From NCBI GenBank assembly GCA_900313615.1, contig OMRP01000002.1, positions 335,326 through 399,325 on the forward strand: a DNA stretch of 64,000 nt. The letters are read 5' to 3'. Below the pieces are notes generated by a model. That model worked only from the letters and a program-made list of their open reading frames with translations. It did no database searches and had not been told where the DNA came from. This document shows positions 20,290 to 46,255 of the stretch, one piece after another. Position 1 is the first letter of the stretch; every line of letters begins with the position of its first letter. The stretch is from an uncultured Prevotellaceae bacterium. Lineage in GTDB: Bacteria > Bacteroidota > Bacteroidia > Bacteroidales > Bacteroidaceae. The translations under genes were made by a program, and so were the position numbers.

Positions 20290-21171
20290 ATGAAAGAAAC
20301 AAGAAATTATTTAAAGTCATTAGGTTTACCGACAGGAGATCTGTATTCCCTTCCCACATCTGAGAAACGATTTGAAGATGGAGGGCAGTACCGTTTTGAA
20401 GTTCCAGGCATTCAAGGCCCAGGACCAATGAGAGCTCTCTTGGAGCAGTTGGACAATTATGGAATACAAATTCACCGTGTTACCCAGACCCAAGGCATCA
20501 TGCGTTTACTCGATTCAGAGATTGAACAGATGTTGGAATATGCCCAAAAATGGAATGTTGAATTACTTTTGGCTACAGGTCCACGAGCGACTATCGACAC
20601 CAGTGCTTCAGTAAATACTCCAGAAGGCGTACGAATGGGGTATCGCCTTCGTGGGCAGGAACAAGTTATTCGTGCGGTGGAAGACATCCGTCGAGCGGTT
20701 AAGATTGGCGTTCGTTCATTTATGGTTTACGATGAAGGTCAACTATGGTTGATGAACCAAATGCGTCGTGACGGTTTCTTACCTTCAGATGTAAAGTTCA
20801 AGGTTTCAGCACATACGGGCCATGGAAATCCATGTTCTGCCAAGTTACTTGAGCAGAACGGGGCTAACTCTTTCAATCCAGTGCGCGACATCCAATTGCA
20901 AATGTTATCGGCCATTCGAGCTGCCATAGACATACCCATCGATATCCATACAGAAAACCCAAAATCTACCGGTGGTTTCATCCGTCATTACGAAGTCCCC
21001 GAATTCATCCGTGTGGCCGCTCCCATCTACCTAAAGACAGGCGGTTCTGTTGCGGCAACGCATAGTTGGGACACAACCGAGGTTGACGCCAAGAAACGAG
21101 CCAAGCAGGTGGCTTTGGTCAAGAGAGTGATTGACACATATTATCCAGAGGCAATCGTTTCGCCGAAATGA
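20290..21171 (+). CDS. Conserved enzyme of unknown function, possibly a TIM barrel
   Basis: 293 residues, soluble, with no signal peptide or membrane helix. I do not recognise the family with confidence. Alternating beta-alpha segments (VELLLATGPRA, GVRSFMVYDEGQLW, VKFKVSAHTGHGNPCSAKLL, IPIDIHTENPKSTGGF, APIYLKTGG) suggest a TIM barrel, loosely recalling U32-type or aldolase-type barrels. Conserved-looking polar residues include the Asp-Glu of VYDEGQ, the His-Thr-Gly-His cluster and the His-Thr-Glu-Asn of the DIHTEN strand. It overlaps the ATP-grasp gene by 4 bases (ATGA), so it is likely a working partner in the acid-metabolism set. Confidence 0.45.
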   Translation: MKETRNYLKSLGLPTGDLYSLPTSEKRFEDGGQYRFEVPGIQGPGPMRALLEQLDNYGIQIHRVTQTQGIMRLLDSEIEQMLEYAQKWNVELLLATGPRATIDTSASVNTPEGVRMGYRLRGQEQVIRAVEDIRRAVKIGVRSFMVYDEGQLWLMNQMRRDGFLPSDVKFKVSAHTGHGNPCSAKLLEQNGANSFNPVRDIQLQMLSAIRAAIDIPIDIHTENPKSTGGFIRHYEVPEFIRVAAPIYLKTGGSVAATHSWDTTEVDAKKRAKQVALVKRVIDTYYPEAIVSPK

Positions 21172-22403
21172 AAAAAAAGCCAATTGCCATAGTGTTGGGT
21201 GGAACATCTCCACACATAGTCCTTGTTAAGGAATTAAAAAAGCGGGGATACTATGTTGTATTAATTGACTATCTGCCCAATCCACCTGCCAAAGAATATG
21301 CAGATGAACATATTTTAGCAAGCACACTTGACAAGGAATGCGTCTTAAATATAGCCAAAGAATTAAATGCATCTTTAGTAATTAGTAGCTGCATAGATCA
21401 GGCTAATAGTGTTTGTTGCTATGTTGCAGAAAGAATGGGGCTTCCTCATCCATACAGCTTTGAGACATCACAGCTTGTCACAGACAAGGGACTGATGAAA
21501 CAACGTATGTTGGAATACGGCATACCCACATCATCTTTCACGCTGACCTCTAATATTGAAGACATCGATTGGGCTAAGATTTCCTTCCCATGTGTAGTAA
21601 AGCCTGTTGATTGCAACAGTTCAAAAGGAGTACATAAGGCAGACACGAAAACAGAAGTAAAAAAATATGTAGAAGAGGCTCTATGTTTAAGCCGAACTCA
21701 TAAAGCCATAATTGAAGGATATTGTACTGGAAATGAGATTCAGGTCGACTGCCTAGCCTTGGAAGATGAAGTTTCCATTGTGATGACCAGGCAAAAGAAG
21801 ATGATAAGGCGCGAGAAGTCCGCAGTTCTTCAGTCATTTGGCTCTGTTGTGCCCGCTCCATTATCAAATGAAGTCTCTATAAAAACCACTGAGATTGCCA
21901 ACAAAATTGCCAATGCATTTCATCTTAGGAATACACCTTTTTTTTATCAAGCTATTGTATCCAACAAGGACATCAACGTATTGGAATTCGCTCCTCGTAT
22001 TGGGGGGGGGCTCAGTTACTACATGCTTAAGAATTTTGTGGGTTTCCATGCGGTAGAAAGTGTTATAGACTCCTTTTTGGGAAATAGTCTTGTTCTAAAG
22101 CGAAAGCCTCTTGAAAAATGTTACCGCACCTGTCTTCTTTATGCTCATCCATGTGTATTCGACCATATAGAGGGTCTACAGCAGTTAAAAGATGAAGGGT
22201 TCTTGAAAGAATTCTTTATTACGAAATGTAAAGGTGATGCAATCGATGAAGATCTACGTAGCAGCAACAGAGTGGGATCTTTTATCGTATCTGGCAAGGA
22301 TGCAAAGGAATTAGAAAAAAAAATAATTATTTGTCTTAACAGAATAAAAATAATAGACACTGAAGGAAAAGACATGATGAACAGATTAATACTCGATAAT
22401 TAA
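21168..22403 (+). CDS. ATP-grasp carboxylate-amine/thiol ligase
   Basis: 411 residues with an N-terminal pre-ATP-grasp Rossmann part (IAIVLGGTSPHIVLVKELKK), an ATP-binding strand FPCVVKPVDCNSSKGVHKA, the IIEGYCTGNEIQVDC hinge, and the metal-binding LEFAPRIGGGLSYYML (E-x-x-P-R-x-GGG). Such enzymes activate a carboxylate as acyl phosphate and join it to an amine or similar nucleophile. It starts within the end of 20290 and ends 2 bases before the C-C lyase gene. It is unusual in holding three long homopolymers: T8 (about 21938), G9 (22002) and A9 (22315). The two substrates are unknown. Confidence 0.75.
   Translation: MKKKPIAIVLGGTSPHIVLVKELKKRGYYVVLIDYLPNPPAKEYADEHILASTLDKECVLNIAKELNASLVISSCIDQANSVCCYVAERMGLPHPYSFETSQLVTDKGLMKQRMLEYGIPTSSFTLTSNIEDIDWAKISFPCVVKPVDCNSSKGVHKADTKTEVKKYVEEALCLSRTHKAIIEGYCTGNEIQVDCLALEDEVSIVMTRQKKMIRREKSAVLQSFGSVVPAPLSNEVSIKTTEIANKIANAFHLRNTPFFYQAIVSNKDINVLEFAPRIGGGLSYYMLKNFVGFHAVESVIDSFLGNSLVLKRKPLEKCYRTCLLYAHPCVFDHIEGLQQLKDEGFLKEFFITKCKGDAIDEDLRSSNRVGSFIVSGKDAKELEKKIIICLNRIKIIDTEGKDMMNRLILDN
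22002..22010 (+). repeat. G9 homopolymer inside the ATP-grasp gene
   Basis: Nine consecutive G encode three glycines of the metal-binding IGGGL motif. Gain or loss of one G would shift the frame and truncate the protein before its last 130 residues. Here the frame is ON. Confidence 0.95.
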
Positions 22404-22405
22404 CA

Positions 22406-23539
22406 ATGAAACATCATCAATATAATCCTAACTATAAGTTTTATAAAGAGCCCGTAGACTTTAATAAGTACACAGATCGTTCTTTGCTACAATATTGTTT
22501 GGGTGCTACGATGTATATGCCTGGCACAAAAGATTTTGCCCAAGCAGTAATTGACAAAAAGTACCCTGGTCTTACCTCCATGGTTATGTGCTTTGAAGAC
22601 GCCTGTCCTGAAGAGGACGTGCCAGCTGCCGAACAGAATAGCATCCATGTGCTTAACACTCTAAAAAAAGCAGAAGATGAAGGTCGGCTTAGATACGAAG
22701 ATATCCCATTGCTTTTTTTCCGAGTCCGCAGTCCTGAACAGTTTGAGCATTTTTCAAACATGCTCCATCCCGAACATGTCCGTTATATCACAGGCTTCAA
22801 TTTCCCCAAGTTCAATGGCATCAATGGCGGTGCTTACATGAGTCAATTGGCTGATTTAAACAACCGTTTTGGTGAAATCATCTATGGTATGCCGATTATA
22901 GAAGACGCTCGTGTAGCGTTTAAAGAAACGCGTCTTTTGGAACTCATGGCCATCAAGAATATATGCGACTGCCACAAGAATTTGATTTTGAACATCCGTG
23001 TTGGAGGAACTGATTTTTCCAGTTGCTTTGGTGTCCGTAGAGGAATCAATTCCACCATATATGACATCATGACTGTTAGCAATTGTCTGATGGATATTTT
23101 GAATGTTTTCACTCGCAACAACGAATATACCGTATCCGGACCAGTTTGGGAATATTTCCGAGTAAACAAGCGCATGAAGTTTGAAGATTTACCCAAAATT
23201 AACATACAGGACACCTTATTAAAAAGGACTCCCGTCGTGAACGATGCTGTTGATGGGTTGATGCGCGAACTAATTCTTGACCAAGCCAACGGATTCATGG
23301 GTAAGACATGTATTCATCCCACCCATCTTAATTTTATCAATGGGATGTTGGCTGTTACAAAAGACGAATATAATGATGCGTACCAAATTCTTCACTCTTC
23401 TGGCGGTGTCATCAAAGGTTCGAAAGGCATGAATGAAATACGCCCCCATACCAATTGGGCCACAAAAATCATGATGCGCGCTGAAGCATACGGTGTTATT
23501 GACAACGAAAATGAATACATTAATTTGTTCGGTGTATAA
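22406..23539 (+). CDS. HpcH/HpaI aldolase / citrate-lyase-beta-like C-C lyase
   Basis: 377 residues, a TIM barrel of the citrate lyase beta/malyl-CoA lyase superfamily. Seen: GATMYMPGTKDFAQAV at the N-terminus, SMVMCFEDACPEEDV (metal-site Glu-Asp), LLFFRVRSP (substrate Arg), YGMPIIEDARVA (second acidic ligand), and GKTCIHPTHLNFIN near the end, where KxCIHP is the family's CoA/substrate signature. It resembles the C-C bond lyase branch that also travels with ATP-grasp proteins in other operons. It should make or break a bond between a keto or aldehyde compound and an acyl unit. It ends by a 1-base overlap (TAATG) with the dehydrogenase gene. Confidence 0.75.
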   Translation: MKHHQYNPNYKFYKEPVDFNKYTDRSLLQYCLGATMYMPGTKDFAQAVIDKKYPGLTSMVMCFEDACPEEDVPAAEQNSIHVLNTLKKAEDEGRLRYEDIPLLFFRVRSPEQFEHFSNMLHPEHVRYITGFNFPKFNGINGGAYMSQLADLNNRFGEIIYGMPIIEDARVAFKETRLLELMAIKNICDCHKNLILNIRVGGTDFSSCFGVRRGINSTIYDIMTVSNCLMDILNVFTRNNEYTVSGPVWEYFRVNKRMKFEDLPKINIQDTLLKRTPVVNDAVDGLMRELILDQANGFMGKTCIHPTHLNFINGMLAVTKDEYNDAYQILHSSGGVIKGSKGMNEIRPHTNWATKIMMRAEAYGVIDNENEYINLFGV

Positions 23540-24513
23540 TGCCAAAGATTTTACATACATCACGTTATACAGGTACTCCGTGGGAGATCCTAAAAAGTGT
23601 TGTTCCAGATAGCTTTTCCATAGAAACCCTGGAAGAGCCAAGCAGGGAATGCCTACTTCAGCAAGTTATTGATGCTGACTATCTGCTTGTAAGTGGTCGT
23701 CTCACCATAGATGAAGAGGTTCTCTCTTCCGCAAAGTGTCTAAAAATGATACAGCGAACTGGCGTAGGTACGGATATGCTTGACAAAGATGCCATTAAAA
23801 GACATGACATCCCCGTTTATGTTAATTCTGGTGTCAATGCCAGAAGTGTTGCAGAACATACGATAACCCTTATTCTATGCTGTCTAAAAAATATCCCACT
23901 CATTTCTACGAACACGAAAAAAGGTATTTGGAAAAAACAGCAAACTGGTGTAACATGCCATGAGTTATTTGGGAAGATCGTAGGTATTGTGGGCATGGGT
24001 GCCATCGGGCAGCAAGTCGCTTTATATTTGAAAGCTTTTGGAGCAAAAGTGCTTTATACAGACGTACACCAACTTGACTGTAAAAAAGAAGCGGAACTAT
24101 CTGTTTCTTTCGTCACCTCATTCGAAGAATTATTACCACAAGTTGACATCCTGAGTTTTCATTGTCCTCTTACTTCCGAGAATAAGGAATTATTGAATGG
24201 AAACAATATTTCATCAATGAAGAATGGAGCTATTATTGTCAACACGGCTCGTGGAAAATTAATAAGCGAAGATGCCTTATACGAAGCAATCTTAAACGGT
24301 CATCTTCATAGCGTAGCTTTGGATGTTCATTATGAAGAACCAATTAAAGGAATTTCAAGATTTGCCAACATGGATAACGTTATCCTTACCCCCCACATTG
24401 CAGGTCTTTCCTATGAAACATTTCATGCGATGATGAAAGGTGCTATCGACAATATCATATCTTTTGAAAAAGGCGAAAAAGAAGTATTAAATAAGAAATT
24501 ATTATCGTTATAA
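23539..24513 (+). CDS. D-isomer-specific 2-hydroxyacid dehydrogenase
   Basis: 324 residues, related to phosphoglycerate dehydrogenase. NAD-binding motif VGIVGMGAIGQQV with the following acidic residue (YTDVH). Catalytic residues of the family are in place: Arg in NTARGKLISEDAL, Glu in DVHYEEPI, and His in LTPHIAGLSYET. It interconverts a 2-keto acid and a D-2-hydroxy acid. No ACT or other regulatory domain is present. It is placed between the C-C lyase and the acyltransferase with 1-base overlaps on both sides, which suggests it reduces an intermediate of the same pathway. Confidence 0.85.
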   Translation: MPKILHTSRYTGTPWEILKSVVPDSFSIETLEEPSRECLLQQVIDADYLLVSGRLTIDEEVLSSAKCLKMIQRTGVGTDMLDKDAIKRHDIPVYVNSGVNARSVAEHTITLILCCLKNIPLISTNTKKGIWKKQQTGVTCHELFGKIVGIVGMGAIGQQVALYLKAFGAKVLYTDVHQLDCKKEAELSVSFVTSFEELLPQVDILSFHCPLTSENKELLNGNNISSMKNGAIIVNTARGKLISEDALYEAILNGHLHSVALDVHYEEPIKGISRFANMDNVILTPHIAGLSYETFHAMMKGAIDNIISFEKGEKEVLNKKLLSL

Positions 24514-25325
24514 TGGATTTACGAAGACTTAAACAAGTCATAACATACGGTTGGAAAGACGCATGCGAAATAAACAATTACGAGAATGTCAATAAAAGCA
24601 AAATAGGCTTATTTATCGATATTCTCCATTGTTTTTTTAAATACAACGTCTGGAGCAGTCAATACAAGAAAGAGAAATTATATGCTCTTGAAAGCCTACA
24701 TCGCAAGGATATTTGCGTGAAATATCAAGAAAAAAATTCAAAGAGGGACAAATGGGTAAAGGAGTTCTTTGCCAATTACAAATTCCTGAACAAATGGAGT
24801 AGTTTCAAATACGAGAAGAGTCCGGGAAAACAAGCTAAACGTCGCAATGCATATAAAAAGCAGTATGGATTGGGAGATAATTGTTTTATAGGCTATGATG
24901 TAATCCTGCATAAACATCATTTCTCTGATGAAACGATAACTATGGGTTCCAATTGCCAAATATCAGAACACGTTAATATTGACTACACAGGAGGATTGAA
25001 AGTGGGAAATGGTGTGGGTATTCTTGAAGGAGTGAAAATACTCACTCATGGGCACGACTATTTGGGAATAAAAAAAGATGAAGATCTTTTGCCTAATTCA
25101 AAAAGAGCATTCTTTTCCCCTTTAGAGATTGCAGATAATGTAACGTTAGGTTCTCATGTTATTATTATGCCGGGTGTTCATTATATTGGCAAGGGTTCCA
25201 TCATTTCTGCAGGTTCCGTTGTCACCAAGCGCATTCCCGACAACGTAATAGTAGCAGGCAATCCTGCTAAGGTAATAGGTAGTCTGGAAGGCGTTAATCT
25301 CTATTCAAGAAACAATAACAACTAA
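24513..25325 (+). CDS. Left-handed beta-helix acyltransferase
   Basis: 270 residues. The first 120 residues are helical and charged with no recognised domain. From about residue 121, hexapeptide repeats begin (GDNCFIGYDVIL, VGNGVGILEGVKILTHGHD, IADNVTLGSHVIIMPGVHYIGKGSIISAGSVV), ending IVAGNPAKVIG, as in maltose/virginiamycin-type O- and N-acyltransferases. The catalytic-type His is in LTHGHD. With a carrier protein and an adenylating ligase directly downstream, the donor may be a carrier-bound acyl group rather than acetyl-CoA. The N-terminal extension could dock the carrier protein. Confidence 0.75.
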   Translation: MDLRRLKQVITYGWKDACEINNYENVNKSKIGLFIDILHCFFKYNVWSSQYKKEKLYALESLHRKDICVKYQEKNSKRDKWVKEFFANYKFLNKWSSFKYEKSPGKQAKRRNAYKKQYGLGDNCFIGYDVILHKHHFSDETITMGSNCQISEHVNIDYTGGLKVGNGVGILEGVKILTHGHDYLGIKKDEDLLPNSKRAFFSPLEIADNVTLGSHVIIMPGVHYIGKGSIISAGSVVTKRIPDNVIVAGNPAKVIGSLEGVNLYSRNNNN

Positions 25326-25341
25326 TAAATGAACAAATAGC

Positions 25342-25569
25342 ATGGAAATAAAATCGTTTATAAAAGACCTTTCTGAAAATGTTTTTACTGACACGCCGAA
25401 AGAGTTATTAAGTAATGAAACAGACTATATGGAATTGGAAGAATGGACCTCAATGACAGCCTTCACCATGATTTCATATTTTAGCAGTGAATATGGGAAG
25501 AAACTACTTCTTCCAGAACTGTTGCAGGCTCATACCATTGGAGACCTGTATAAAATAATAAACGGCTAA
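25342..25569 (+). CDS. Acyl/peptidyl carrier protein
   Basis: 75 residues with the four-helix carrier-protein pattern. The phosphopantetheine site is probably Ser37 in EEWTSMTAFTMI, a variant of the usual D-S-L/M motif with Trp-Thr before the serine. It lies between the beta-helix acyltransferase and the adenylate-forming ligase (1 base before the latter), so it should carry the acid activated by 25571. Its helix 2 is less conserved than in fatty-acid ACPs, consistent with a dedicated pathway. Confidence 0.75.
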   Translation: MEIKSFIKDLSENVFTDTPKELLSNETDYMELEEWTSMTAFTMISYFSSEYGKKLLLPELLQAHTIGDLYKIING

Positions 25570-25570
25570 C

Positions 25571-26983
25571 ATGTTTAATCTTTTACAATACGCTAAGAAT
25601 ACTGCCGTAATCACAGACCGCGGCGAAAGATTCACCTACGAACATCTATTTAGCGAGGTTCAACAATTCGGATTGCAAATAGCCAGACGTGGACTTGTCT
25701 GTTGTCTGTGTAAAAATGAAATAGGCGCATTAATTGGATATGTGTCTGGTATTTGCTATAGAAATCCTCTGATGTTACTTGATGGAGGGCGTGATAGCGA
25801 CTATTTTTGTTCATACATTGAGAAATATCATCCGGAATACATTTGGACTCCTTCTAATAAAAGTTCTGAATTTGACGGTTCAGTCATCTATGAAAGACAT
25901 GGTTATTCATTGATGAAAATGAATGTCAAGTTAGGAGAAGCCAATATACACCTTCATGACAAACTTGCTCTTTGCCTTACCACTTCTGGCAGCACGGGAT
26001 CTCCCAAATTGGTCAGGCTGACTAAAGAAAACCTTGAGTCGAATGCACAATCGATAGCCACATACTTGAACATCAATGAAGATGAACGTCCTATAACGAC
26101 GTTGCCTATGTACTATTCGTTTGGCTTGTCTGTTATCAATAGTCATTTGATAAAAGGAGCTACAATACTATTAACAAATAGTACCGTTTTTTCCAAGTCT
26201 TTCTGGGACTTCTTCGGACAGACATTTCCAACATCTATTGCAGGGGTTCCTTTTACCTATGAGATGTTGGAGCGAATGGGTTTTTTCCAAATGGCCATGC
26301 CATCTTTAAAAACGATGATCCAGGCTGGGGGTAAGTTGAATGCCGATGTTGTGAAACGTTATGTCCAATTTGCGGAGGAAACGAATAAGAGTTTTATCGT
26401 AATGTATGGACAGACAGAAGCAAGTCCTCGTATGAGTTACCTGCCTTTCGAATATGCTTCAACAAAGCCCTCCAGCATAGGCATTCCTATTCCTGGTGGA
26501 GCTTTTTTATTGTTCGATGCCAATGGTCAGCCCATTCAAGAACCAAACACTGAGGGCGAATTGGTTTATAAAGGAGCGAATGTCTGTTTAGGTTATGCAG
26601 AATGCCGTGAGGATTTAGAAAAGGGAGATGAGAACAAAGGGTTGTTGAGAACCGGAGATGTGGCTTTCCGTGACACTGAAGGCTTTTATTATATTACTGG
26701 CCGACTAAAACGTTTTGTGAAGATCTGGGGAAACCGCTATAATCTAGATGCTATTGAGCAATTGATTAAGCCGATAACTACAGACTGTGCATGTGTAGGA
26801 AATGACAACAAAATATATGTGGTTGTTGTCGATTCCAAATACGTTAACGAAATAGCTCATTTGATGAATAAAAAACTACAACTAGACAAGAGTTGTTACT
26901 CCATAAATGTTATAGAGAAGATACCCAAAACGCCATCAGGAAAAATACAATACACAGAATTAAAGAGCACCATTGGCCTTTAA
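25571..26983 (+). CDS. Adenylate-forming acyl/amino-acid:carrier ligase (ANL superfamily)
   Basis: 470 residues. The P-loop LTTSGSTGSPKLVRLT is at residues 136-151; further motifs are YGQTEASPRMSYLP, GELVYKGANVCLGYA, LRTGDVAFRDTEGFYYITGRLKRF (with the conserved Asp and Arg) and the C-terminal catalytic Lys in KTPSGKIQYTEL. It activates a carboxylic acid as acyl-AMP and probably loads it on the carrier protein encoded just upstream. The substrate cannot be read from the sequence; candidates are the hydroxy or dicarboxylic acids made by the neighbouring enzymes. Confidence 0.85.
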   Translation: MFNLLQYAKNTAVITDRGERFTYEHLFSEVQQFGLQIARRGLVCCLCKNEIGALIGYVSGICYRNPLMLLDGGRDSDYFCSYIEKYHPEYIWTPSNKSSEFDGSVIYERHGYSLMKMNVKLGEANIHLHDKLALCLTTSGSTGSPKLVRLTKENLESNAQSIATYLNINEDERPITTLPMYYSFGLSVINSHLIKGATILLTNSTVFSKSFWDFFGQTFPTSIAGVPFTYEMLERMGFFQMAMPSLKTMIQAGGKLNADVVKRYVQFAEETNKSFIVMYGQTEASPRMSYLPFEYASTKPSSIGIPIPGGAFLLFDANGQPIQEPNTEGELVYKGANVCLGYAECREDLEKGDENKGLLRTGDVAFRDTEGFYYITGRLKRFVKIWGNRYNLDAIEQLIKPITTDCACVGNDNKIYVVVVDSKYVNEIAHLMNKKLQLDKSCYSINVIEKIPKTPSGKIQYTELKSTIGL

Positions 26984-27009
26984 TTCATTTTTCATTTGAC
27001 TTAAAAACG

Positions 27010-28233
27010 ATGAGAAATCTCGATCAATTTATAAAAGACCACGTCACATTCCGCCCCATCAGTATGTTTGCTGCCGATATTGAGGCAAACAAAGAGATCT
27101 TGACTCAAGAAATCAAAGCCAAGACAGTCTGTGTCATTGGTGGTGCCGGCTCCATCGGTTCTTCGTTCATTAAGGCAGTTCTACGATTTGAGCCGAAGAG
27201 TGTGGTTGTGATTGACCTTAACGAGAATGGTTTGGCGGAATTAGTGCGTGACGTGCGCAGTACGGATGGACTTTATGTTCCTGACGAATTCCGTTGCTAT
27301 ACCCTCAACTTTGCCGACCCCATCTTCGAGCGAATCTTCCGCGAGGAAAAAGGCTTTGACATCGTTGCCAATTTCTCCGCCCACAAGCATGTTCGTTCCG
27401 AGAAAGACAAATACTCCGTTCAGGCTCTGATAGAGAACAACGACATCAAGGCTAAAAAATTGATGGATCTGTTGACAGTCTATCCTCCGAAGCATTTCTT
27501 CTGTGTGAGCACTGACAAGGCCGCCAATCCAGTGAATATCATGGGCGCCTCGAAACGTATCATGGAAGATTTGGTGATGGCATACAACCAATATTTCAAA
27601 GTCACCACCGCCCGTTTCGCGAATGTCGCATTCAGCAACGGTTCATTGCCTGACGGATGGATTCATCGTATTCAGAAACAACAACCCTTGGCTGCCCCTT
27701 CAGATGTCAAACGGTATTTCGTTTCACCAGAAGAATCGGGACAGATATGTATGTTGGCCTGTATTTTAGGTAAGGGTGGAGAAGTATTCTTCCCCAAGCT
27801 TTGTGAAGACCAGATGCTCACCTTTTCATCAATCTGCGATGACTTTATCAAAGCTAATGGTTTTGAAAAAGACCTTTGTTCCTCCGACGAAGAGGCCAAG
27901 CATAAAGCTGCAACTTTAGCGTTCACCCATCAAGGAGATAAAGAGGGGGCTTACCCTGTCGTTTATTTTAGCTCCGACACCACAGGCGAAAAAGCCTATG
28001 AAGAGTTTTATGTCCCTGGCGAAAAAATCGACATGCAGCGTTTCCTTGCCTTGGGAGTCGTTGAACAAACCTCCCGTCATAGCATGAATGAGGTTAACGC
28101 TTTCTTTGACAAATTAGAAGGACTCTTTACCAATCCCGCTTTCACCAAAGCCCAAGTGGTAGAAGCCATCAAAGAGTTTATCCCTAACTTTGAACATGAG
28201 GAAAAAGGCAAGAACCTAGATCAAAAAATGTGA
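27010..28233 (+). CDS. Nucleotide-sugar 4,6-dehydratase, PseB/LegB/FlaA1-type SDR
   Basis: 407 residues from the ATG at 27010; the frame stays open upstream into the ligase gene but that part is unrelated. Rossmann motif TVCVIGGAGSIGSSFIKAV, the IVANFSAHKHVRSEKD segment, and FCVSTDKAANPVNIMGASKRIMEDL, where Met-Gly-Ala replaces the usual catalytic Tyr region as in the extended CapD/PseB group. It would turn a UDP- or GDP-HexNAc into the 4-keto-6-deoxy sugar used by 28236. The C-terminal 120 residues are longer than in PseB and resemble LegB-type enzymes. Confidence 0.82.
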   Translation: MRNLDQFIKDHVTFRPISMFAADIEANKEILTQEIKAKTVCVIGGAGSIGSSFIKAVLRFEPKSVVVIDLNENGLAELVRDVRSTDGLYVPDEFRCYTLNFADPIFERIFREEKGFDIVANFSAHKHVRSEKDKYSVQALIENNDIKAKKLMDLLTVYPPKHFFCVSTDKAANPVNIMGASKRIMEDLVMAYNQYFKVTTARFANVAFSNGSLPDGWIHRIQKQQPLAAPSDVKRYFVSPEESGQICMLACILGKGGEVFFPKLCEDQMLTFSSICDDFIKANGFEKDLCSSDEEAKHKAATLAFTHQGDKEGAYPVVYFSSDTTGEKAYEEFYVPGEKIDMQRFLALGVVEQTSRHSMNEVNAFFDKLEGLFTNPAFTKAQVVEAIKEFIPNFEHEEKGKNLDQKM

Positions 28234-28235
28234 TT

Positions 28236-29381
28236 ATGGAATATAAAATAATAACTGATTTCATTCACGATTTATATGGGGGACAAGACTTCGTCCCTTT
28301 GGCTGTTCCCGTGTTTATTGGCAACGAGAAAAAATACCTCAACGAATGCATCGACACCACCTTTGTTTCAAGCGTGGGCAAGTTTGTTGACCGCTTTGAA
28401 GAGGACACAGCCAAATATACAGGTTGTAAACGAGCAGTGGTATGTGTCAGCGGAACCAATGCCCTTCACATGTCATTGATGTTGGCTGGTGTAAAGCGTG
28501 ACGACGAGGTGCTGACCCAGGCCTTGACTTTCATCGCCACTTGCAACGCTCTCAGTTATATTGGAGCGCATCCTGTATTCATCGATGTAGACAGAGACAC
28601 CATGGGCCTTTCTCCTACAGCCGTCAGGGAATGGCTTGCCAAAAACTCCAAAATGAAAAATGGAGAGTGTTATAATAAGCATACAGGTCGTAGGGTAAAA
28701 GCTTGTGTTCCCATGCACACATTCGGGCATCCTGTCCATCTGGATGAGCTGGTGAACGTTCTAAAAGAGTTCAATATCGAACTTGTGGAAGATGCTGCCG
28801 AGAGTATCGGTTCCCTATATAAAGGAAAGCATACCGGCACTTTCGGCAAGGTTGGAGCCTTGAGCTTCAATGGCAACAAGACTATTACCACTGGTGGCGG
28901 CGGCATGATGCTGTTCAACGACGAGGATTTGGGCGCTTATGCAAAACATCTCACCACACAGGCTAAAATTCCCCATCGTTGGGAGTTTCGTCATGACCAC
29001 ATCGGCTACAACTATCGTATGCCCAACATCAATGCCGCCCTTGGCTGTGCTCAGTTGGAACAGATAGAGAAATATGTGGCCAGCAAGCGTGAAACGGCCA
29101 AGGCTTATGAGGAGTTCTTTAAAGACATTCCTGACATTGAGTTCTTTATTGACACGCCGGAAACCCGGAGCAATTACTGGCTGAACGTTGTAATCCTTAA
29201 GGATAAGGATGCGCAGTTGAGCTTCTTGGAGTACACCAATGACCACGGTGTGATGACACGTCCCATTTGGGAACTTATGAACCGCCTGCCCATGTTCGAG
29301 CGTTGTGAGAATGACGGTCTGAAAAACACCATCTGGTTCGCCGACAGGGTGGTGAATATTCCGAGTAGTGTGAGATTATGA
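28236..29381 (+). CDS. LegC-type nucleotide-sugar aminotransferase
   Basis: 381 residues from the ATG at 28236; a GTG at 28230 is possible but overlaps the previous stop. DegT family, LegC branch: FVSSVGKFVDRFEEDTA, VSGTNALHMSLMLAG, LVEDAAESIGSLYKGKHTG, and SFNGNKTITTGGGGMM with Schiff-base Lys215. It aminates C4 of the keto sugar made by 27010 to give a 2,4-diamino-2,4,6-trideoxyhexose. It overlaps the acetyltransferase gene by 4 bases, forming a dehydratase-aminotransferase-acetyltransferase set. Confidence 0.87.
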   Translation: MEYKIITDFIHDLYGGQDFVPLAVPVFIGNEKKYLNECIDTTFVSSVGKFVDRFEEDTAKYTGCKRAVVCVSGTNALHMSLMLAGVKRDDEVLTQALTFIATCNALSYIGAHPVFIDVDRDTMGLSPTAVREWLAKNSKMKNGECYNKHTGRRVKACVPMHTFGHPVHLDELVNVLKEFNIELVEDAAESIGSLYKGKHTGTFGKVGALSFNGNKTITTGGGGMMLFNDEDLGAYAKHLTTQAKIPHRWEFRHDHIGYNYRMPNINAALGCAQLEQIEKYVASKRETAKAYEEFFKDIPDIEFFIDTPETRSNYWLNVVILKDKDAQLSFLEYTNDHGVMTRPIWELMNRLPMFERCENDGLKNTIWFADRVVNIPSSVRL

Positions 29382-30016
29382 AGAAACCTCTTATCCTTAT
29401 TGGTGGCGGCGGTCATTGCAAATCTGTGTTAGAAGTTGCAGAAAGTGCAGGTTATCGGATTCTTGGTGTGCTGGATATGCCAGAAGAGGTGGGCAAAGAA
29501 ATTCTATCAACCAAAGTTATCGGTACCGACGACGATATACCATCTTTGGTGGATAAAGCAGATTTTGTGATTACCGTTGGTTTTATCAAAGACCCTTCTA
29601 TCCGCATAAAATTGTACAATCGCGTAAAAGAAGCTGGCGGCAGGCTGGCGATGATTATCTCATCTACTGCATACGTCTCTAAGTATGCCACGATAGGTGA
29701 GGGAACCGTAGTGATGCACCATGCTTTTGTAAATGCCGGAGCAAATGTGGGTAATAATGTCATCATTAATACCTTCGCCAACATTGAGCATGATGCCATT
29801 ATTGGCGACCAGTGCCATATTTCGACAGGCACCATGGTAAATGGTGACTGTAAGGTGGGCAAGAATTGTTTTATTGGCAGCCAATCAGTATTAGCTAATG
29901 GCATCACTATTGGAGATGACATCATTGTGGGTGCAGGCTCACTGGTAAGGAAATCTATCGGTATCAAAGGCATTTATTCCGGCAATCCTGCAGTTTTAAA
30001 GATAAAAACGAAATGA
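29378..30016 (+). CDS. NeuD/PglD/LegH-family sugar N-acyltransferase
   Basis: 212 residues. The N-terminal PILIGGGGHCKSV-like Rossmann strand binds the UDP-sugar in this family, and the C-terminal hexapeptide beta-helix carries the catalytic-type His in NTFANIEHDAIIGDQCHIS. It should acylate the new 4-amino group, with acetyl-CoA as the usual donor. In this locus, a non-acetyl acyl group from the nearby carrier protein is also conceivable but not supported directly. Overlaps 4 bases with both neighbours. Confidence 0.85.
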   Translation: MKKPLILIGGGGHCKSVLEVAESAGYRILGVLDMPEEVGKEILSTKVIGTDDDIPSLVDKADFVITVGFIKDPSIRIKLYNRVKEAGGRLAMIISSTAYVSKYATIGEGTVVMHHAFVNAGANVGNNVIINTFANIEHDAIIGDQCHISTGTMVNGDCKVGKNCFIGSQSVLANGITIGDDIIVGAGSLVRKSIGIKGIYSGNPAVLKIKTK

Positions 30017-31080
30017 CTATGTTGACTGAACGTGTAAGGAAGAGGACGGTAGATTCTCAAAAGACCATCATCCAAACCATGAAGATGATGGATGATTGTT
30101 TTGCCAAGTCATTATTGGTTTTTAAAAACGACAAATTCCTTGGTATGATTACCAATGGAGACCTGCAAAGGGCAATCATTGCTAACAAGCCTTTTGACAC
30201 GGAAATTGGATCTCTCATCAACAATTCTGAAAAGAAATATGCCCTCATAACAGATGACAAGGAACAGATTAAAGCATGGATGCTCGAGGTAAGAGCAGAA
30301 ATGATGCCCATTATCGACAACAACGGTAACCTTGTCAAAGTTATTTTCTGGGAAGACCTGTTCAAAGAAACACAAGACGACAACAGAGAAAAGATTGATA
30401 TTCCCGTTGTTATTATGGCTGGAGGGAAAGGAACACGACTGAAACCAATAACAAATGTCATTCCAAAGCCATTGATCCCTATTGGTGATAAGACCATTCT
30501 AGAAGAAATCATGGATCAGTTTGAGGGGATTGGTTGTAAGCAATTCTATATGTCGGTGAATTACAAGTCAGACATGATGCGTTTCTACCTTGAGCAATTA
30601 GAGCATCATTATGAAATAGAATTCTTTGAGGAAACAAAGCCGTTAGGCACAATAGGAAGCGTATCTCTTTTGAAGGGAAAGATCTGCACCCCATTCTTCG
30701 TCAGCAATTGTGATATCATCATAGACCAGGACTATCGTGACGTGTATAAATACCACGTCAACAACAACAATGAATTGACGATTGTAACTGCCGTCAAGAG
30801 TTTCAAGATTCCCTACGGTGTAATTGAGACCGGTGAAGACGGATTGATGACGGGTTTACAGGAAAAGCCCGAAATCACCTATATGATTAACACGGGTGTT
30901 TATATACTCAATCCTGAATGTATAAACGAGATACCGGAGGGAGAATTCTTCCATATCACCCATCTTATGGAGAAAATCAAGCAACGCGGTGGACGCATTG
31001 GTTGCTTTCCTGTCAGTGAACATTCATGGAAAGACATGGGCGACTGGAGTGAATATTTAAAAGTAGCAAATATAATCTGA
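30013..31080 (+). CDS. CBS-domain sugar-phosphate nucleotidyltransferase (PtmE-like)
   Basis: 355 residues. Residues 1-120 form a CBS pair (LLVFKNDKFLGMITNGDLQRAI and MMPIIDNNGNLVKVIFWEDL); residues about 128-355 are a nucleotidyltransferase with VVIMAGGKGTRLKPITNVIPKPLIPI and FFVSNCDIIIDQDY. The same architecture occurs in PtmE of Campylobacter, which makes GDP-GlcN for legionaminic acid. Here no NeuB/LegI synthase or CMP-transferase follows, so the pathway probably stops at the diamino sugar. The CBS pair suggests control by adenine nucleotides. Confidence 0.82.
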   Translation: MTMLTERVRKRTVDSQKTIIQTMKMMDDCFAKSLLVFKNDKFLGMITNGDLQRAIIANKPFDTEIGSLINNSEKKYALITDDKEQIKAWMLEVRAEMMPIIDNNGNLVKVIFWEDLFKETQDDNREKIDIPVVIMAGGKGTRLKPITNVIPKPLIPIGDKTILEEIMDQFEGIGCKQFYMSVNYKSDMMRFYLEQLEHHYEIEFFEETKPLGTIGSVSLLKGKICTPFFVSNCDIIIDQDYRDVYKYHVNNNNELTIVTAVKSFKIPYGVIETGEDGLMTGLQEKPEITYMINTGVYILNPECINEIPEGEFFHITHLMEKIKQRGGRIGCFPVSEHSWKDMGDWSEYLKVANII

Positions 31081-31081
31081 A

Positions 31082-32251
31082 ATGGAAAATAAAAAGTATA
31101 GTTTGTTAGTCATAGCTCTATATTGCTATTCTGGGCATGTGAAGGCTGTCATAGATCATCTCAAGTCTAAAAATCCATTAGTGGATTTGACACTGCTGAC
31201 AGACAAACCAGAAGAAATGAAGGATTTGCTGGAAGACAAGTCTGTTAAAATATTAGAATACGACATTCTCACTCCAAGCAAAATAAAATGGCGATGGCTG
31301 AGGTCTATGGTGATAAGATACAGGCAAAAAAAGTTCTTTTCTCACTTTAGTAAGGGCAAGAAATATGACATCGTAAATATTCAATTTCCTAAAAGGTACC
31401 TTTCTTTTGTGCGCAAATACTTGAGAAGCATGTCAAACAATATTGTAATCACTCCCTGGGGAAGTGATGTGTTGCGACAGAACAGAGAGTCATTGAACCA
31501 ACTGAAAGGACTATATAAAGAGGCTGATTATATCGCCACATCGCCCAACACGCCTTTAGGCAGAAAGATTATTGAAGAATTCAAGGTGGATTCCAAGATA
31601 ATGGTCGGCAATTTCTTTGGTTCTGATGTAGTGGATTTCGCGATTGAGAAGGGAACATCCATTACTCAAAAGGAAGCTAAAGAGCGTTTCGGATTAGCGG
31701 GAAGATATGTAATAACCTGCGGTTACAACCGGAAAGTACCACAGCGACACAAGGCAATCATCGCTGCCATAGATAAGGTAAAAGACCAACTCCCAAAGAA
31801 CTTAACCCTACTATTCCCTATGACATATGCCAATCCAAGAACAGAAAACGACTATGTGGCAGAATGCAAGGAAGATTGCAAGGATAGAGGTTTATCGGCT
31901 TTGTTTATTACTGATTTTCTAACAGTTGAAGATATATACAAACTAAGAAAAGCCACCGATATGTTTATACATGTACAAACTACTGATGCAAGTTCAGCTT
32001 CCGTACAAGAATACATTCTTTGCGACAAAAAGATTGTGCATGGTTCATGGATTAAATATGAAGAATTGGAGAATTATAAGCCATTGTTTTATTTCCCTGT
32101 CGACGATATGAATAATTTAGCGGAAACAATTATTAAAGCTTTCATATCTGATAAGATAGTTATACCTAAAGAGGTTATGGAATTAATCAAGAGCCACGGA
32201 TGGAACACAACAAGTTCTTTGATGAATGAATTTTTCATGAGTATTGTGTAA
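31082..32251 (+). CDS. Glycosyltransferase, GT4-like (GT-B fold)
   Basis: 389 residues, cytosolic. The N-terminal half has YDIVNIQFPKRYLSF and NIVITPWGSDVLRQN, typical of GT-B acceptor domains. The C-terminal half has AGRYVITCGYNRK, the PLFYFPVDD strand and SSASVQEYILCDK, where the E of the usual E-x7-E motif sits in VQEYIL. Donor and acceptor are unknown. It is 1 base after the nucleotidyltransferase gene. Confidence 0.7.
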   Translation: MENKKYSLLVIALYCYSGHVKAVIDHLKSKNPLVDLTLLTDKPEEMKDLLEDKSVKILEYDILTPSKIKWRWLRSMVIRYRQKKFFSHFSKGKKYDIVNIQFPKRYLSFVRKYLRSMSNNIVITPWGSDVLRQNRESLNQLKGLYKEADYIATSPNTPLGRKIIEEFKVDSKIMVGNFFGSDVVDFAIEKGTSITQKEAKERFGLAGRYVITCGYNRKVPQRHKAIIAAIDKVKDQLPKNLTLLFPMTYANPRTENDYVAECKEDCKDRGLSALFITDFLTVEDIYKLRKATDMFIHVQTTDASSASVQEYILCDKKIVHGSWIKYEELENYKPLFYFPVDDMNNLAETIIKAFISDKIVIPKEVMELIKSHGWNTTSSLMNEFFMSIV

Positions 32252-32275
32252 CAAAGCATTACGATTATCTTTCAC

Positions 32276-33628
32276 ATGCAACAATTAATTACAGATATAT
32301 TCCTAACCAATCTTAGGAACCGAGTGGTAAACGGATTTACCGATGAGACATTATCAAAAGCGAGAGAATGTTTACTCGACTTTATAGGAGTATCTTTAGC
32401 CGGTGCTGTTACATTAAAAGGCAAGGAACAAGATGTCGCAAATCAAATTGAAACAATCGATGGATGCCATGTCATCGGCATGCAAAAAAAAGTGAACATG
32501 AATGTGGCTGCACTGCTCAATGGCATCAGTTCCCATGTCATAGAATTAGATGACGGTCACCGTATCGGAATGTTACACTTAGGATCACCCATAATTTCCT
32601 CCCTTTTAGCTGTAGCAGAGAAAGAAGAAGTTTCTTCTAAAGATTTCCTTAATGGCATAGTTGTCGGCTATGAGACAGCCATCCGTTTGGCATGCGCCAT
32701 ACAGCCTGGACATAAACTAAAAGGATATCATGCCACAGGTACTTGTGGCACAATCGGAGCAGCCATGGCTATTGCCACAGCACTTCGTTTTGACTTTGAG
32801 CAAATGAAATCTGCCTTTTCCGCAGCTGTTACTAGTGCCGCAGGTGTTCTAGAAATGATTGAAGGCGATACGGAACTCAAGCCATTCAATGCCGGTCGAG
32901 CCGCAATGGACGGTGTGGCGGCCGCCTATATAGGAAAAGCCCGTTTCAAAGCTCCGGAAGATGCTTTAGGGGGCAAACGAGGGTTCTTAAAGGTTATGAC
33001 TGATAATGCAAAAATGGATTATATTTTAGATTTCAACAATAAGAGATCTATGATAGAGACCATATACATGAAGCCCTATGCAGCATGCCGCCATTGTCAT
33101 CCTTCGATAGAAGCTGCCCTTCATATAAAAGAGAATCGCTCGTTCAAACTTGATGAGGTAGAGAATATTCATATTGACACTTATAAACTAGCAGTTGCCG
33201 GACATGATCACACCGACATAAAAGGTTCCAATTCCGCCAAGATGAGTATTCCCTATAGTTTGGCGGTCGCATTGTGTACAGGAAAAGCCGGTATAGATGC
33301 ATATACAGAAAGAAACATTAAGAATCCCAAAATACAAGCTATTACAAAAAAAGTATCTGTAACCGATATCGACGAACTCACAGCTTTGTGTCCCCAGAAA
33401 CGGGTAGCCATAGTAACAGTGAATACCAAATCGGGAAAGTTTACAGAACGTATCGAATATCCCAAGGGTGAGCCTGAAAACCCGCTTACCAAACAGGAAT
33501 TAGAGGAGAAGTTCTATGGATTAGCCATATATGGCGGCTTAACAAAAAATGAATGTGATGTGGTTATAAAAGAAATAGAGAATAACAATTTCAACCTTGC
33601 TAAAATAATAAACGTCATTTGTAAATGA
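32276..33628 (+). CDS. MmgE/PrpD-family dehydratase
   Basis: 450 residues, full length for the family, which includes 2-methylcitrate dehydratase, cis-aconitate decarboxylase and iminodisuccinate epimerase. Seen: LLDFIGVSLAGA near the N-terminus, ELDDGHRIGMLHLGSPIISSLLA (active-site Asp and His region), GYHATGTCGTIGAAMA, and KPYAACRHCHPSIEAA. It should dehydrate or isomerise a polycarboxylic acid. It is translationally coupled (4-base overlap) to the fumarase-type subunits. Such a gene is not normal in a polysaccharide locus. Confidence 0.85.
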   Translation: MQQLITDIFLTNLRNRVVNGFTDETLSKARECLLDFIGVSLAGAVTLKGKEQDVANQIETIDGCHVIGMQKKVNMNVAALLNGISSHVIELDDGHRIGMLHLGSPIISSLLAVAEKEEVSSKDFLNGIVVGYETAIRLACAIQPGHKLKGYHATGTCGTIGAAMAIATALRFDFEQMKSAFSAAVTSAAGVLEMIEGDTELKPFNAGRAAMDGVAAAYIGKARFKAPEDALGGKRGFLKVMTDNAKMDYILDFNNKRSMIETIYMKPYAACRHCHPSIEAALHIKENRSFKLDEVENIHIDTYKLAVAGHDHTDIKGSNSAKMSIPYSLAVALCTGKAGIDAYTERNIKNPKIQAITKKVSVTDIDELTALCPQKRVAIVTVNTKSGKFTERIEYPKGEPENPLTKQELEEKFYGLAIYGGLTKNECDVVIKEIENNNFNLAKIINVICK

Positions 33629-34134
33629 AAAACCTGACGACTCCACTAAGCGAAGAAGATATCGCAAAATTAGAAGTAGGTGATGTGATAACCATTTCAG
33701 GCTATATTTATACAGGCCGGGATGCCGTTTTGCCAAAAATTGTGAAGCATGCAAAAGAGGGAACTCTTACAGAAGTTAATGTAGAACTGCAAGGAAGTGT
33801 CATTTTTCACACCGCGGTAAGTTTAGCAGGTGTTGGCCCTACGTCAAGCAACAAACTTGAAATAGAGAGCAGTTTTGAACCTTTATCTAAGGCTGGAGTT
33901 AAAATACATCTTGGCAAAGGAGCCATAAAATCGGAAACAGTGAAAGCTCTTGCTGAAAATAATGCTGTTTTTGCCATCATTCCGCCTGTCACTGCACTTT
34001 TGGAGAGCCAAACCACAGAACGAGAAATAGTATGTTATCCAGAATTGGGTATGGAGGCATTTCACCGTATCAAAGCAGATCATTATCAAGCCATTATAGC
34101 CGCCGCTAAAGGAAAGAGTATTTATGACAAATAA
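33625..34134 (+). CDS. Class I fumarase/L(+)-tartrate dehydratase-type beta subunit
   Basis: 169 residues matching the C-terminal (beta) domain of Fe-S hydro-lyases: DVITISGYIYTGRDAVLPKI, HTAVSLAGVGPTSSNKLEIE (the GPTTS-like substrate loop) and FAIIPPVTALL. The standard lyase beta domain contains GxGPTTSxRM; here the loop reads GPTSSNKLE, a change that may alter substrate choice. It overlaps both neighbours. With 34124 it forms the enzyme that adds or removes water across a C=C bond in a small dicarboxylic acid. Confidence 0.82.
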   Translation: MKNLTTPLSEEDIAKLEVGDVITISGYIYTGRDAVLPKIVKHAKEGTLTEVNVELQGSVIFHTAVSLAGVGPTSSNKLEIESSFEPLSKAGVKIHLGKGAIKSETVKALAENNAVFAIIPPVTALLESQTTEREIVCYPELGMEAFHRIKADHYQAIIAAAKGKSIYDK

Positions 34135-34984
34135 TATTATTGACAAGGTTGCGAATTGCTTAGTACAGGCCGGTTCCACTTTCCGAGAGGATCAAAAAAG
34201 GGCATATCTTCGTGCTATTGACAAAGAACCTGGGTCTCACAGCTGTTGGGTGATGCGTCAAGTGCTTGACAATGCATTGGTAGCAGAGAAAAATCATGGC
34301 CCGTTGTGCGATGACACAGGTATTCCTCATCTTTTTTTAGAAATAGGTCCAAAGAAGCAACTCTCGGGAGAATTGATTCAACAAATACACCAAGGTATTG
34401 AGGTTGGATTGCGTAAACTACCAGGACGTCCCATGGCTATTATGGGTAATGACTATCAGCGCATTGACCAATCTGGTGGTCTGAATCCTGACCCTGGCGC
34501 ATTGCTATCTTCACCATTAATTGTCAAGCCTGTCGATGAAGATGTGCTTCGACTGACGATATTGATGTTGGGTGGAGGGCCAGCCATTCGTGGTGTCACG
34601 CATCGTGTATTCCATAAGCACAGTGTCGACACAGTAATTGATGAAATCGTTAATCGTGCCATTCCTGCTGTTGGTCAGTTGGGATGCTCTCCTTGTACCT
34701 TAGCCATTGGAATAGGACGTAGTCAGTTTGAAGCTACCAGCCTTATGATGGAAGCCATGGCGAAGGGAAACTATGATGAGCAATCTGACTTTGAACAAGC
34801 CATTACCAATCGCGTAAATGAGTCCAATATTGGCGCATTAGGACTCGGGGGTAAGACCAGCGTATTAGCCACCTTTGCCAAAGTTGGTCCACAAAGGGCC
34901 AGTGGTGTAAGGGTCGTAGCTCTTAGACCATGTTGTTGTTTCGAGCCAAGGAGGGCTGTCGTTGATTTATTTGATAATGTTTGA
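34124..34984 (+). CDS. Class I fumarase/L(+)-tartrate dehydratase-type alpha subunit
   Basis: 286 residues matching the Fe-S (alpha) domain. Cluster-type cysteines are visible in HGPLCDDTGIPH, VGQLGCSPCTLAIGIG and ALRPCCCFEPRRA. It also has the family's NRVNESNIGALGLGGKTSVLA. The cluster would be oxygen-labile, in keeping with an anaerobe. It overlaps the beta gene by 11 bases; the order beta then alpha is the reverse of the usual ttdA-ttdB arrangement. The natural substrate (fumarate/malate, tartrate, mesaconate/citramalate or another acid) cannot be told here. Confidence 0.85.
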   Translation: MTNNIIDKVANCLVQAGSTFREDQKRAYLRAIDKEPGSHSCWVMRQVLDNALVAEKNHGPLCDDTGIPHLFLEIGPKKQLSGELIQQIHQGIEVGLRKLPGRPMAIMGNDYQRIDQSGGLNPDPGALLSSPLIVKPVDEDVLRLTILMLGGGPAIRGVTHRVFHKHSVDTVIDEIVNRAIPAVGQLGCSPCTLAIGIGRSQFEATSLMMEAMAKGNYDEQSDFEQAITNRVNESNIGALGLGGKTSVLATFAKVGPQRASGVRVVALRPCCCFEPRRAVVDLFDNV

Positions 34985-45235: not shown

Positions 45236-46255
45236 ATGGCTTCTATGAGACAATCGAACATGGAATTATTGCGTATTTTCGCAATGTTTCTCATTCTAAT
45301 CATTCATGCTACAAGTATGTCTTTAGGGGGACTTCCTACAATCGAGCAATCCCACAACAATTTTGGTTATACTCATTCATTTTTCTTCTTTTATGGCCTA
45401 TCAAGTGTAGGAGTAAATCTATTTGTATTAATTTCAGGGTGGTTTGGAATAAGACCTACTTTAAAGTCTTTTTTCAAATTGTTATTTCAAGTTCTTTTCT
45501 TTACAATTCTAGCCTTTTGCGTTCTTATTATTACTGATAAAGATAAATACTTGAATCTAAATACATTTTCCTATGTTTTCCTAATTCCTTCCAATCAGTT
45601 ATGGTTTGTTAAAGCATATTTGGTCTTAATGATACTTGCACCTGTTCTTAATACTTTTGCCGAGAGTTGTTCTTCTAGGCAACTATTGAAGACAATCATT
45701 GCCTTTTATGTATTTCAAACTATTTATGGTTGGTGTTTTGCGGATAGTACGCCATGGATTGGTGGCGGGTATTCTCCTATTTCTTTTTTAGGACTATATT
45801 TAACTGCCAGATATTTACGCCTATATCCCCAACCATGGTATAGATGGGGGTTTGCGAAGTTGACAGGATTGTTCATATTGATAATATTTGCACTAGCATT
45901 ATTGTCGTCGTTTATTACATACAAAGGTTACCCCATCGCTGGTAGGTTATATGCTTATTCTAGCCCTTTCATGATTTGTGCCGCGATTATTCTTTTAATT
46001 GCTTTTTCAAGATTAAAATTTCAGAATAACTTTATTAATTGGGTAGCCATTTCCGCCTTTGCTGTATATCTTACTCATGGAAATGAGATAATTCTTCGAG
46101 GCTATTATGCACCGTTTATTGGAAAAATATTCAATAATAATTCTGGTATTGTATTTATCCTATTGGTGTTCGTTTTTATGCTAAGTGTGTTTTCTATCTC
46201 AATCTTATTAGATAAAATCCGATTATATTTCTGGAATATTATAACAAAAAAATGA
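45236..46255 (+). CDS. Acyltransferase 3 family membrane O-acyltransferase
   Basis: 339 residues with about ten membrane helices. N-terminal [25 protein letters not shown] has the Arg and His (LIIHAT) of the family; [17 protein letters not shown] is the following helix. It is a second O-acetyltransferase candidate for the glycan, beside 34997, and both share the opening RQSN.EL.RI. Starts 8 bases after wzy and overlaps the heptose kinase gene by 4 bases. Confidence 0.83.

Follow-up and report, generated by a model that had tools for sequence, protein, structure and literature searches.

A recurrent module of small-acid enzymes in bacterial surface-glycan loci and its possible part in the amide decoration of an amino sugar

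We describe a set of genes from a 64,000-nucleotide stretch of the genome of an uncultured Prevotellaceae bacterium (assembly GCA_900313615.1, contig OMRP01000002.1, positions 335,326 to 399,325; hereafter the window) that recurs in distantly related bacteria. We lean towards the view that it encodes a mobile pathway for a small hydroxylated, probably dicarboxylic acid, which would be joined by an amide bond to an amino sugar of a surface polysaccharide or flagellar glycan. The region is a surface-polysaccharide locus in which ten open reading frames (ORFs) for small-acid chemistry form two blocks, 20290-26983 and 32276-34984, with sugar genes between them. Seven of the ten (20290, 21168, 22406, 23539, 32276 and the pair 33625/34124) make up the recurrent module. 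These ORFs and two upstream genes are listed below and named hereafter by their first position in the window.

17758..18861, plus strand: DegT-type aminotransferase, viosamine (dTDP-Qui4N) type by resemblance; beyond the range of the initial annotation
18938..20278, plus strand: lipoprotein with papain-like Cys150/His197; recurs alongside the module
20290..21171, plus strand: U32-like TIM-barrel enzyme, constant front end of the module
21168..22403, plus strand: ATP-grasp ligase with LAL_C2 domain (PF13535, PF18603), proposed amide former
22406..23539, plus strand: C-C bond lyase (PF15617, E 5.6e-113), H-type, exchangeable middle
23539..24513, plus strand: D-2-hydroxyacid dehydrogenase (PF02826, 3.9e-55), H-type reductive end
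24513..25325, plus strand: LbH acyltransferase, accessory acyl module, not core
25342..25569, plus strand: putative acyl carrier protein, no family match, accessory module, not core
25571..26983, plus strand: AMP-forming acyl ligase (PF00501, 4.9e-40), accessory module, not core
32276..33628, plus strand: MmgE/PrpD-family enzyme (PF03972, 3.6e-53), H-type, exchangeable middle
33625..34134, plus strand: fumarase-type hydro-lyase, beta subunit (PF05683 Fumerase_C, 1.6e-19), front end
34124..34984, plus strand: fumarase-type hydro-lyase, alpha subunit (PF05681 Fumerase, 1e-45), front end

When one genome was scanned for each species, with the 20290 protein of the window and its homologue from a second genome (G101) as queries, 36 loci emerged; the G101 locus itself, L037, is part of the bait, and all locus counts are conditional on 20290. 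Gene presence was counted by tblastn, with thresholds chosen in the script after a first survey. The module was carried by 31 of the 36 loci. The remaining five have remote homologues of 20290 (39-52% identity), and the search for 21 other genes found none of them there at the thresholds used. Every module locus has a C-C lyase, namely the PF15617 lyase in 28 and an HMGL-like enzyme in three. Relatives of PrpD were found in 27, of the ATP-grasp ligase in 26 and a hydratase in 27 (fumarase type in 23 and ASL type in four), the beta and alpha subunits of the hydro-lyase being detected in 23 and 22 loci, respectively. Several loci reach contig edges, so that absences there are unproven. Aminotransferase 17758 and lipoprotein 18938, which were not part of the gene set first proposed for this region, have relatives in 18 and 10 of the 31 loci.

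In a test independent of the bait, comprising 393 genomes of the order, 20290 was found in two genomes, and the fumarase-type alpha subunit (at 1e-20) in the same two. These were also the genomes in which PF15617 scored above 350 bits; the next best score was 71.6 bits, with some match to this family in 166 genomes. According to the record labels, the module loci belong to Bacteroidota, Clostridia, Alpha- and Gammaproteobacteria. Five come from named isolates (L016, L027, L028, L033 and L035), that is, Prevotella sp. khp7, Vreelandella nigrificans, J. marina, T. scottomollicae and B. synergistica. The module is therefore no binning artefact, although some loci of Clostridia-labelled metagenome-assembled genomes (MAGs) may be misbinned. 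These sequence comparisons show that the seven genes form one module, which appears to be horizontally mobile.

Two versions of the module differ at their reductive end. One set, here called K, has an aldo-keto reductase (11 of 31 loci), accompanied in 10 of the 11 by a thiamine pyrophosphate (TPP) decarboxylase. The other, called H, has a 2-hydroxyacid dehydrogenase (12 loci) or an Ldh2-type enzyme (seven), one or both being present in 17 loci; the window is of this kind. No locus had both sets and three had neither. The mean identity of 20290 was 81.7% between the K and H branches and 80.0 and 81.1% within them, and the hydro-lyase subunits behaved likewise, whereas the lyase showed 83.0 and 79.3% within branches and 53.2% between them, and PrpD 53.1 and 52.8% within and 37.5% between (means over the labelled loci among L006-L021, L035 and L037, with H limited to the 2-hydroxyacid dehydrogenase). 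On the trees for lyase and for PrpD the K/H label changed twice each (after shuffling, 8.2 and 8.8 times on average; none of 2000 shuffles equally low), and 9, 8 and 7 times on the trees of 20290 and of the alpha and beta subunits (shuffled means 8.8, 6.9 and 6.2). These were quick trees of the window plus the labelled loci with a called ORF (27, 24, 27, 20 and 18 rows), for two of which, lyase and PrpD, the program gave a long-branch warning; L028 and others were lost to ORF calling and are missing from the trees, yet they are included in the tblastn counts. The module has, in short, a constant front end, 20290 and the hydro-lyase, while the lyase, PrpD and the reductase are swapped as one set. 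Relatives of aminotransferase 17758 follow the same division, occurring in 15 of 17 H loci vs one of 11 K loci (Fisher p 5e-5). In L029 (10956-11939), and also in L032 and L034, an HMGL-like enzyme (PF00682 in L029) stands in place of the PF15617 lyase, an apparent non-homologous replacement.

In the pathway that we propose, 20290 would act on a 2-oxo acid through dehydration or aldol chemistry, a role suggested because its homologues sit in sugar-acid catabolism clusters, and the fumarase-type hydro-lyase would add water to, or remove it from, a dicarboxylic-type acid. Lyase 22406 and PrpD 32276 would rework the skeleton into a 2-oxo acid, from which, judging from the enzyme families, both the K and the H ends would start. 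In the H version dehydrogenase 23539 would reduce it to a 2-hydroxy acid, and in the K version the TPP enzyme would decarboxylate it and the aldo-keto reductase would yield an alcohol. Aminotransferase 17758, of viosamine type, would make a 4-amino-4,6-dideoxyhexose to which the ATP-grasp ligase would join the acid. The carrier, ligase and LbH trio would serve as a second, separate acyl module. A bolder version, which we advance tentatively and would not call probable, is that of a hitherto undescribed pathway, mobile between phyla, in which a constant front (a cluster-less U32-like barrel and an altered fumarase-type hydro-lyase) is combined with interchangeable middles. These would choose in which form a surface glycan carries one new polyfunctional acid, as a 2-hydroxy acid or as a decarboxylated alcohol, with 20290 as founder of a new family of 2-oxo-acid enzymes and 18938 perhaps acting on the substituent.

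The protein encoded by 20290 had no match in Pfam (0.001) or NCBIfam, so the Pfam U32 peptidase family PF01136 was unmatched too. It is a TIM barrel (AlphaFold2 model, pLDDT 88.2), and profile-profile comparison gave a distant relation to U32 a probability of 95.2%, against 1.4 for DHDPS, 0.4 for the lyase and 0.5 for fumarase; its relatives are annotated as U32 peptidase in RefSeq records. With the U32 proteins 20290 also shares the barrel fold. Three lysines are invariant among 34 sequences of the family (the window and 33 of the 36 loci, with L008, L009 and L010 left out). No cysteine is invariant among these 34, the best column holding 28, and hence no Fe-S-type U32 cysteine cluster was found in them, a cluster that we take to be a trait of the Fe-S members of U32. 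In Paenibacillus baekrokdamisoli a 39% homologue is flanked on one side by an IlvD-type dehydratase that resembles L-arabinonate dehydratase (683.8 bits, cut-off 882) and on the other by the 2-oxoglutarate-semialdehyde dehydrogenase GucD (860 vs 770); the enzyme to be expected in this slot is a 2-keto-3-deoxy acid dehydratase. The cluster around a Thermomicrobium homologue includes sugar ABC genes and an enolase-superfamily enzyme.

Distant homologues of 20290 (L041, 9977-10933, and L045, 9001-9936) sit in clusters resembling those of sugar-acid catabolism, at a place that one would expect a 2-keto-3-deoxy acid dehydratase or aldolase to fill. Homologues with 50-52% identity (L036, 2382-4178, and L051, 6474-9205) adjoin an MFS-like ORF and asparagine-synthase-like proteins, so called by Pfam in L036 and by eye in L051, and these are perhaps small-molecule clusters. 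An Enterobacter plasmid (L046, 7898-18861) carries a 32% homologue together with an oxidoreductase, an aminotransferase, iron-containing redox enzymes and an MFS transporter, possibly an uncharacterised biosynthetic cluster.

The gene calls of the initial annotation, which had been made from the window alone, stood, though with weak support for carrier 25342. Every ORF that it named is present, and Pfam bore out the families given for 21168 (ATP-grasp), 23539 (D-2-hydroxyacid dehydrogenase), 25571 (AMP-binding) and 32276 (MmgE/PrpD). The nine genes that it counted exist but amount to ten ORFs, and its remark that most are joined by overlaps holds for five of eight within-block junctions (1, 1, 4, 4 and 11 bases), the other three being gaps (1, 2 and 16). 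Its "citrate-lyase-type" enzyme 22406 is indeed a C-C lyase, with 377.8 bits against PF15617 C-C_Bond_Lyase (curated cut-off 28.4), but it does not reach the equivalog cut-off of citrate lyase beta/CitE (22.1 bits for a cut-off of 443.4). Residues E64, D65, E166 and D203 are invariant in 24 lyase rows (the window and 23 of the 26 loci having a called lyase ORF). ORF 32276 has both MmgE/PrpD domains (PF03972 180.7 and PF19305 128.5 bits, cut-off 32.1 each), and its nearest solved relatives are the IDS epimerase 2hp0 and B. subtilis IRG1. For the 2-methylcitrate dehydratase PrpD its scores are under the equivalog cut-offs (55.4/950, 48.3/575 and 35.6/458).

The hydro-lyase had been described as a split class I fumarase type; the family holds, but 33625 and 34124 are the ordinary two-subunit form rather than a split gene. 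The alpha subunit passes TIGR00722 (107.8 bits, cut-off 100.65) and the beta subunit is below TIGR00723 (72.3, cut-off 145.15). In alpha, C62, C188, C191, C271 and C272 are invariant in 15 rows (the window and 14 of 20 loci), C62 and D63 being found in 15/15; D63, in the motif LCDDTG, is Q in 7xky. In beta, K77 (GPTSSNK) is invariant in 14/14 (the window and 13 of 18 loci), and both 7xky and 2isb have R there. The roles of these cysteines and substrate-side positions are those that we assume for the family. With D63 and K77 in place of Q and R, the acid handled by the hydro-lyase is therefore perhaps neither fumarate nor tartrate. An ASL-type enzyme may be its stand-in in the four proteobacterial loci that have no fumarase type.

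On our best reading a 4-amino-4,6-dideoxyhexose would bear the acid in amide linkage, the bond being made by the ATP-grasp ligase or, in Vreelandella, by a WbqC protein. Aminotransferase 17758, which we take to resemble VioA, had its best score with the DesI model (298.7 bits, cut-off 650). In V. nigrificans the gene run comprises RmlA-like, aminotransferase, lyase, PrpD, 20290, 2-hydroxyacid dehydrogenase, ATP-grasp, WbqC, LbH-like, ASL and cyclase genes, and it meets on the opposite strand a glycosyltransferase-like ORF of 1193 amino acids (aa), flagellin and two FliD-looking ORFs (the names RmlA-like, LbH-like and FliD were assigned by eye). The earlier proposal of a small-acid pathway for a surface glycan is in line with these data, since the module travels as a unit, in glycan loci and, in Vreelandella, as a neighbour of flagellin. 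Amides of hydroxy-dicarboxylic acids, namely malyl and 2-hydroxyglutaryl groups, are known constituents of bacterial glycans (PMC3210612). Lipoprotein 18938 had no Pfam match; its residues C23, C150 and H197 are invariant in 11/11 sequences. To us the protein has an NlpC/P60 look, and its target at the cell surface may be the substituent of the glycan.

A different route of attachment had been suggested originally, in which ligase 25571 loads the acid on carrier 25342 and 24513 or another acyltransferase transfers it. The three genes are tightly packed inside the gene run, but relatives of the carrier, the ligase and the LbH protein occur in only three, one and three of the 31 module loci, respectively. 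In L006, L007 and L009 the carrier is accompanied by KASIII-like and SDR (short-chain dehydrogenase/reductase) genes (names by eye), and in the window the carrier is present with no KASIII recognised. We consider this route unlikely. As for its components, the carrier has the size of one, a W-T-S-M motif read by eye and carrier-like relatives (ORFs of three related loci, 27-33% identity) but no Pfam or NCBIfam match, and the LbH call for 24513 is modestly supported, with a Pfam score of 26.3 bits under the cut-off of 27 and a resemblance to NCBIfam O-acetyltransferase models at scores under their cut-offs. The trio was placed outside the module because it is absent in most module loci, so that of the neighbourhood first proposed seven ORFs recur elsewhere and these three do not belong. 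They more likely represent a separate, ordinary-looking acyl module, and ATP-grasp 21168, with relatives in 26 of 31 loci, is the better candidate for attachment.

The nature of the 2-oxo acid itself can be read in another way. Were it phosphonopyruvate or sulfopyruvate, the products would be phosphonolactate (H) or 2-hydroxyethylphosphonate (K), and two scores point this way: with the phosphonopyruvate decarboxylase model the TPP enzyme of G101 is over the cut-off (387.6 bits, cut-off 312.5), and the L023 reductase of Ldh2 type comes closest to sulfolactate dehydrogenase, albeit under the cut-off (233.8, cut-off 500). However, phosphoenolpyruvate (PEP) mutase was found over the cut-off in none of 17 genomes searched (16 distinct, since G101 is the genome of L037), several of them incomplete and that of the window 82% complete; there were three matches below the cut-off, of 47-128 bits. 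Phosphonopyruvate decarboxylases of 496-521 bits occur in six of 198 genomes of the order (L086-L091), each beside a similar-looking ORF (430-485 aa); the only such ORF tested, that of L088, encodes PEP mutase and has a cytidylyltransferase domain as well. The K-type decarboxylases split from these six with full support, in a tree built without L093 (382 bits, dropped by a motif filter) and the fragment L094. Because no PEP mutase passed the cut-off and the K type is split from the PEP-mutase-linked decarboxylases, a carboxylic analogue is the more likely substrate, and a phosphonate is unlikely. The reading as a whole is improbable, though a sulfonate may yet be the product.

Two further explanations concern the kind of product. 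The module could make an unusual sugar or ulosonic acid instead of an acyl group, with the U32-like barrel and the C-C lyase as aldolases of a sugar skeleton, and the sugar-acid dehydratase-type enzymes and 2-oxoglutarate-semialdehyde dehydrogenase adjoining 20290 homologues would be in keeping with this. Nevertheless, the two-carboxylate chemistry of the fumarase-type and PrpD enzymes, the ATP-grasp ligase and the viosamine-type aminotransferase fit an N-acyl group better, and we regard a sugar product as improbable. That a catabolic organic-acid module lies in glycan loci by chance is the least credible of these alternatives, and in our view very unlikely. Several of the enzymes belong to families with catabolic names, the clusters that hold distant 20290 homologues look catabolic, and V. 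nigrificans has an ABC-transporter-like set just upstream of the module on the opposite strand (no transporter search was made), but the module recurs in glycan loci and beside flagellin across distant phyla, together with aminotransferase and ligase.

Several observations weigh against an amide-linked hydroxy acid as the product. The records of the 31 module loci are in 26 cases MAGs or uncultured, and L029, L032 and L034 are near-identical, so the 31 loci are not 31 independent cases. Aminotransferase 17758 is under all curated cut-offs, including that of TIGR02379, described as dTDP-4-amino-4,6-dideoxy-D-glucose transaminase (142.6 vs 434.85), and 10 of the 11 K loci have no relative of it, so that the acceptor there would be something else; four K loci have other DegT proteins scoring under the threshold used. 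The ATP-grasp relatives are diverse (22-62% identity) and absent in five of 31 loci. We know of no solved glycan from a module-bearing organism, although no strain-wise search was made. Additionally, the middle genes sit between 20290 and the hydro-lyase genes in many loci; block recombination can therefore explain the linkage of lyase, PrpD and reductase, which may reflect the exchange of one contiguous piece of DNA and not chemistry. The pairing of the whole block with one kind of reductase nonetheless suggests a chemical unit.

Acylated amino sugars are well known from polysaccharide loci. The tetronate-perosamine system of Vibrio cholerae O1 is presumably similar in that a short hydroxy acid made from an O-antigen locus is put on an amino sugar, but, as we understand it, it employs other enzymes and uses a carrier and an acyl ligase. 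The Bacteroides-type aminoethylphosphonate (aep) genes presumably resemble the K branch in having a related TPP decarboxylase followed by a reductase. They differ in PEP mutase, which adjoins the decarboxylase in L088, among the related genes of L086-L091, and was not found over the cut-off in the module genomes searched. Biosynthetic operons of the Ter system, we assume, likewise combine a PF15617 lyase with an ATP-grasp-fold ligase, with different partners; no Ter family was among the Pfam matches of the window ORFs scanned. A closer parallel is the viosamine island of P. syringae pv. tabaci, which shares a viosamine aminotransferase, a 4-amino acyl group and a flagellin glycan, and whose large transferase mVio (1173 aa) is paralleled in Vreelandella by the 1193-aa ORF (PMC3927599). 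The acyl supply of that island consists of KASIII, ketoreductase and acyl carrier protein, which the carrier, KASIII-like and SDR genes of L006, L007 and L009 resemble, whereas here it comprises the U32-like barrel, fumarase-type hydro-lyase, C-C lyase, PrpD, hydroxyacid dehydrogenase and ATP-grasp ligase. Searched with the KASIII-, SDR- and carrier-like proteins from L007 and L009, which served as queries in place of those of P. syringae itself, the Vreelandella island yielded nothing at 1e-4. The initial annotation knew of no described locus with its full set, which agrees with our literature searches of open-licence papers, in which no description was found, and the pathway itself seems new.

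The host genome of the window comprises 2.77 Mb in 33 contigs, with a completeness of 82%. The sugar genes that separate the two blocks encode an SDR, a LegC-family aminotransferase (548 bits vs a cut-off of 420), a PglD-like acetyltransferase, a CBS-nucleotidyltransferase and a glycosyltransferase-like protein. Downstream of the second block there are genes for two Acyl_transf_3 proteins, for EpsG and LicD, and for a heptose-type set. This last set (46252-49280), in the same locus, is of GDP-heptose type and consists of a GHMP kinase, a SIS protein and a fused nucleotidyltransferase-phosphatase that narrowly passes the GmhB model (150.5 vs 149.6). Upstream of aminotransferase 17758 there is an ornithine cyclodeaminase/mu-crystallin family protein (16051-17031).

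N-acyl groups on surface amino sugars help to determine the serotype and how phages and hosts recognise the cell. If the proposed pathway is true, it would account, as a single pathway, for an uncharacterised acid substituent in Bacteroidota of rumen and gut and in flagellated proteobacteria, and would give a function to the unnamed enzyme 20290, whose relatives are labelled as U32 peptidase. Glycan decorations would, in that case, be switched through swaps of metabolic cassettes between fixed genes.

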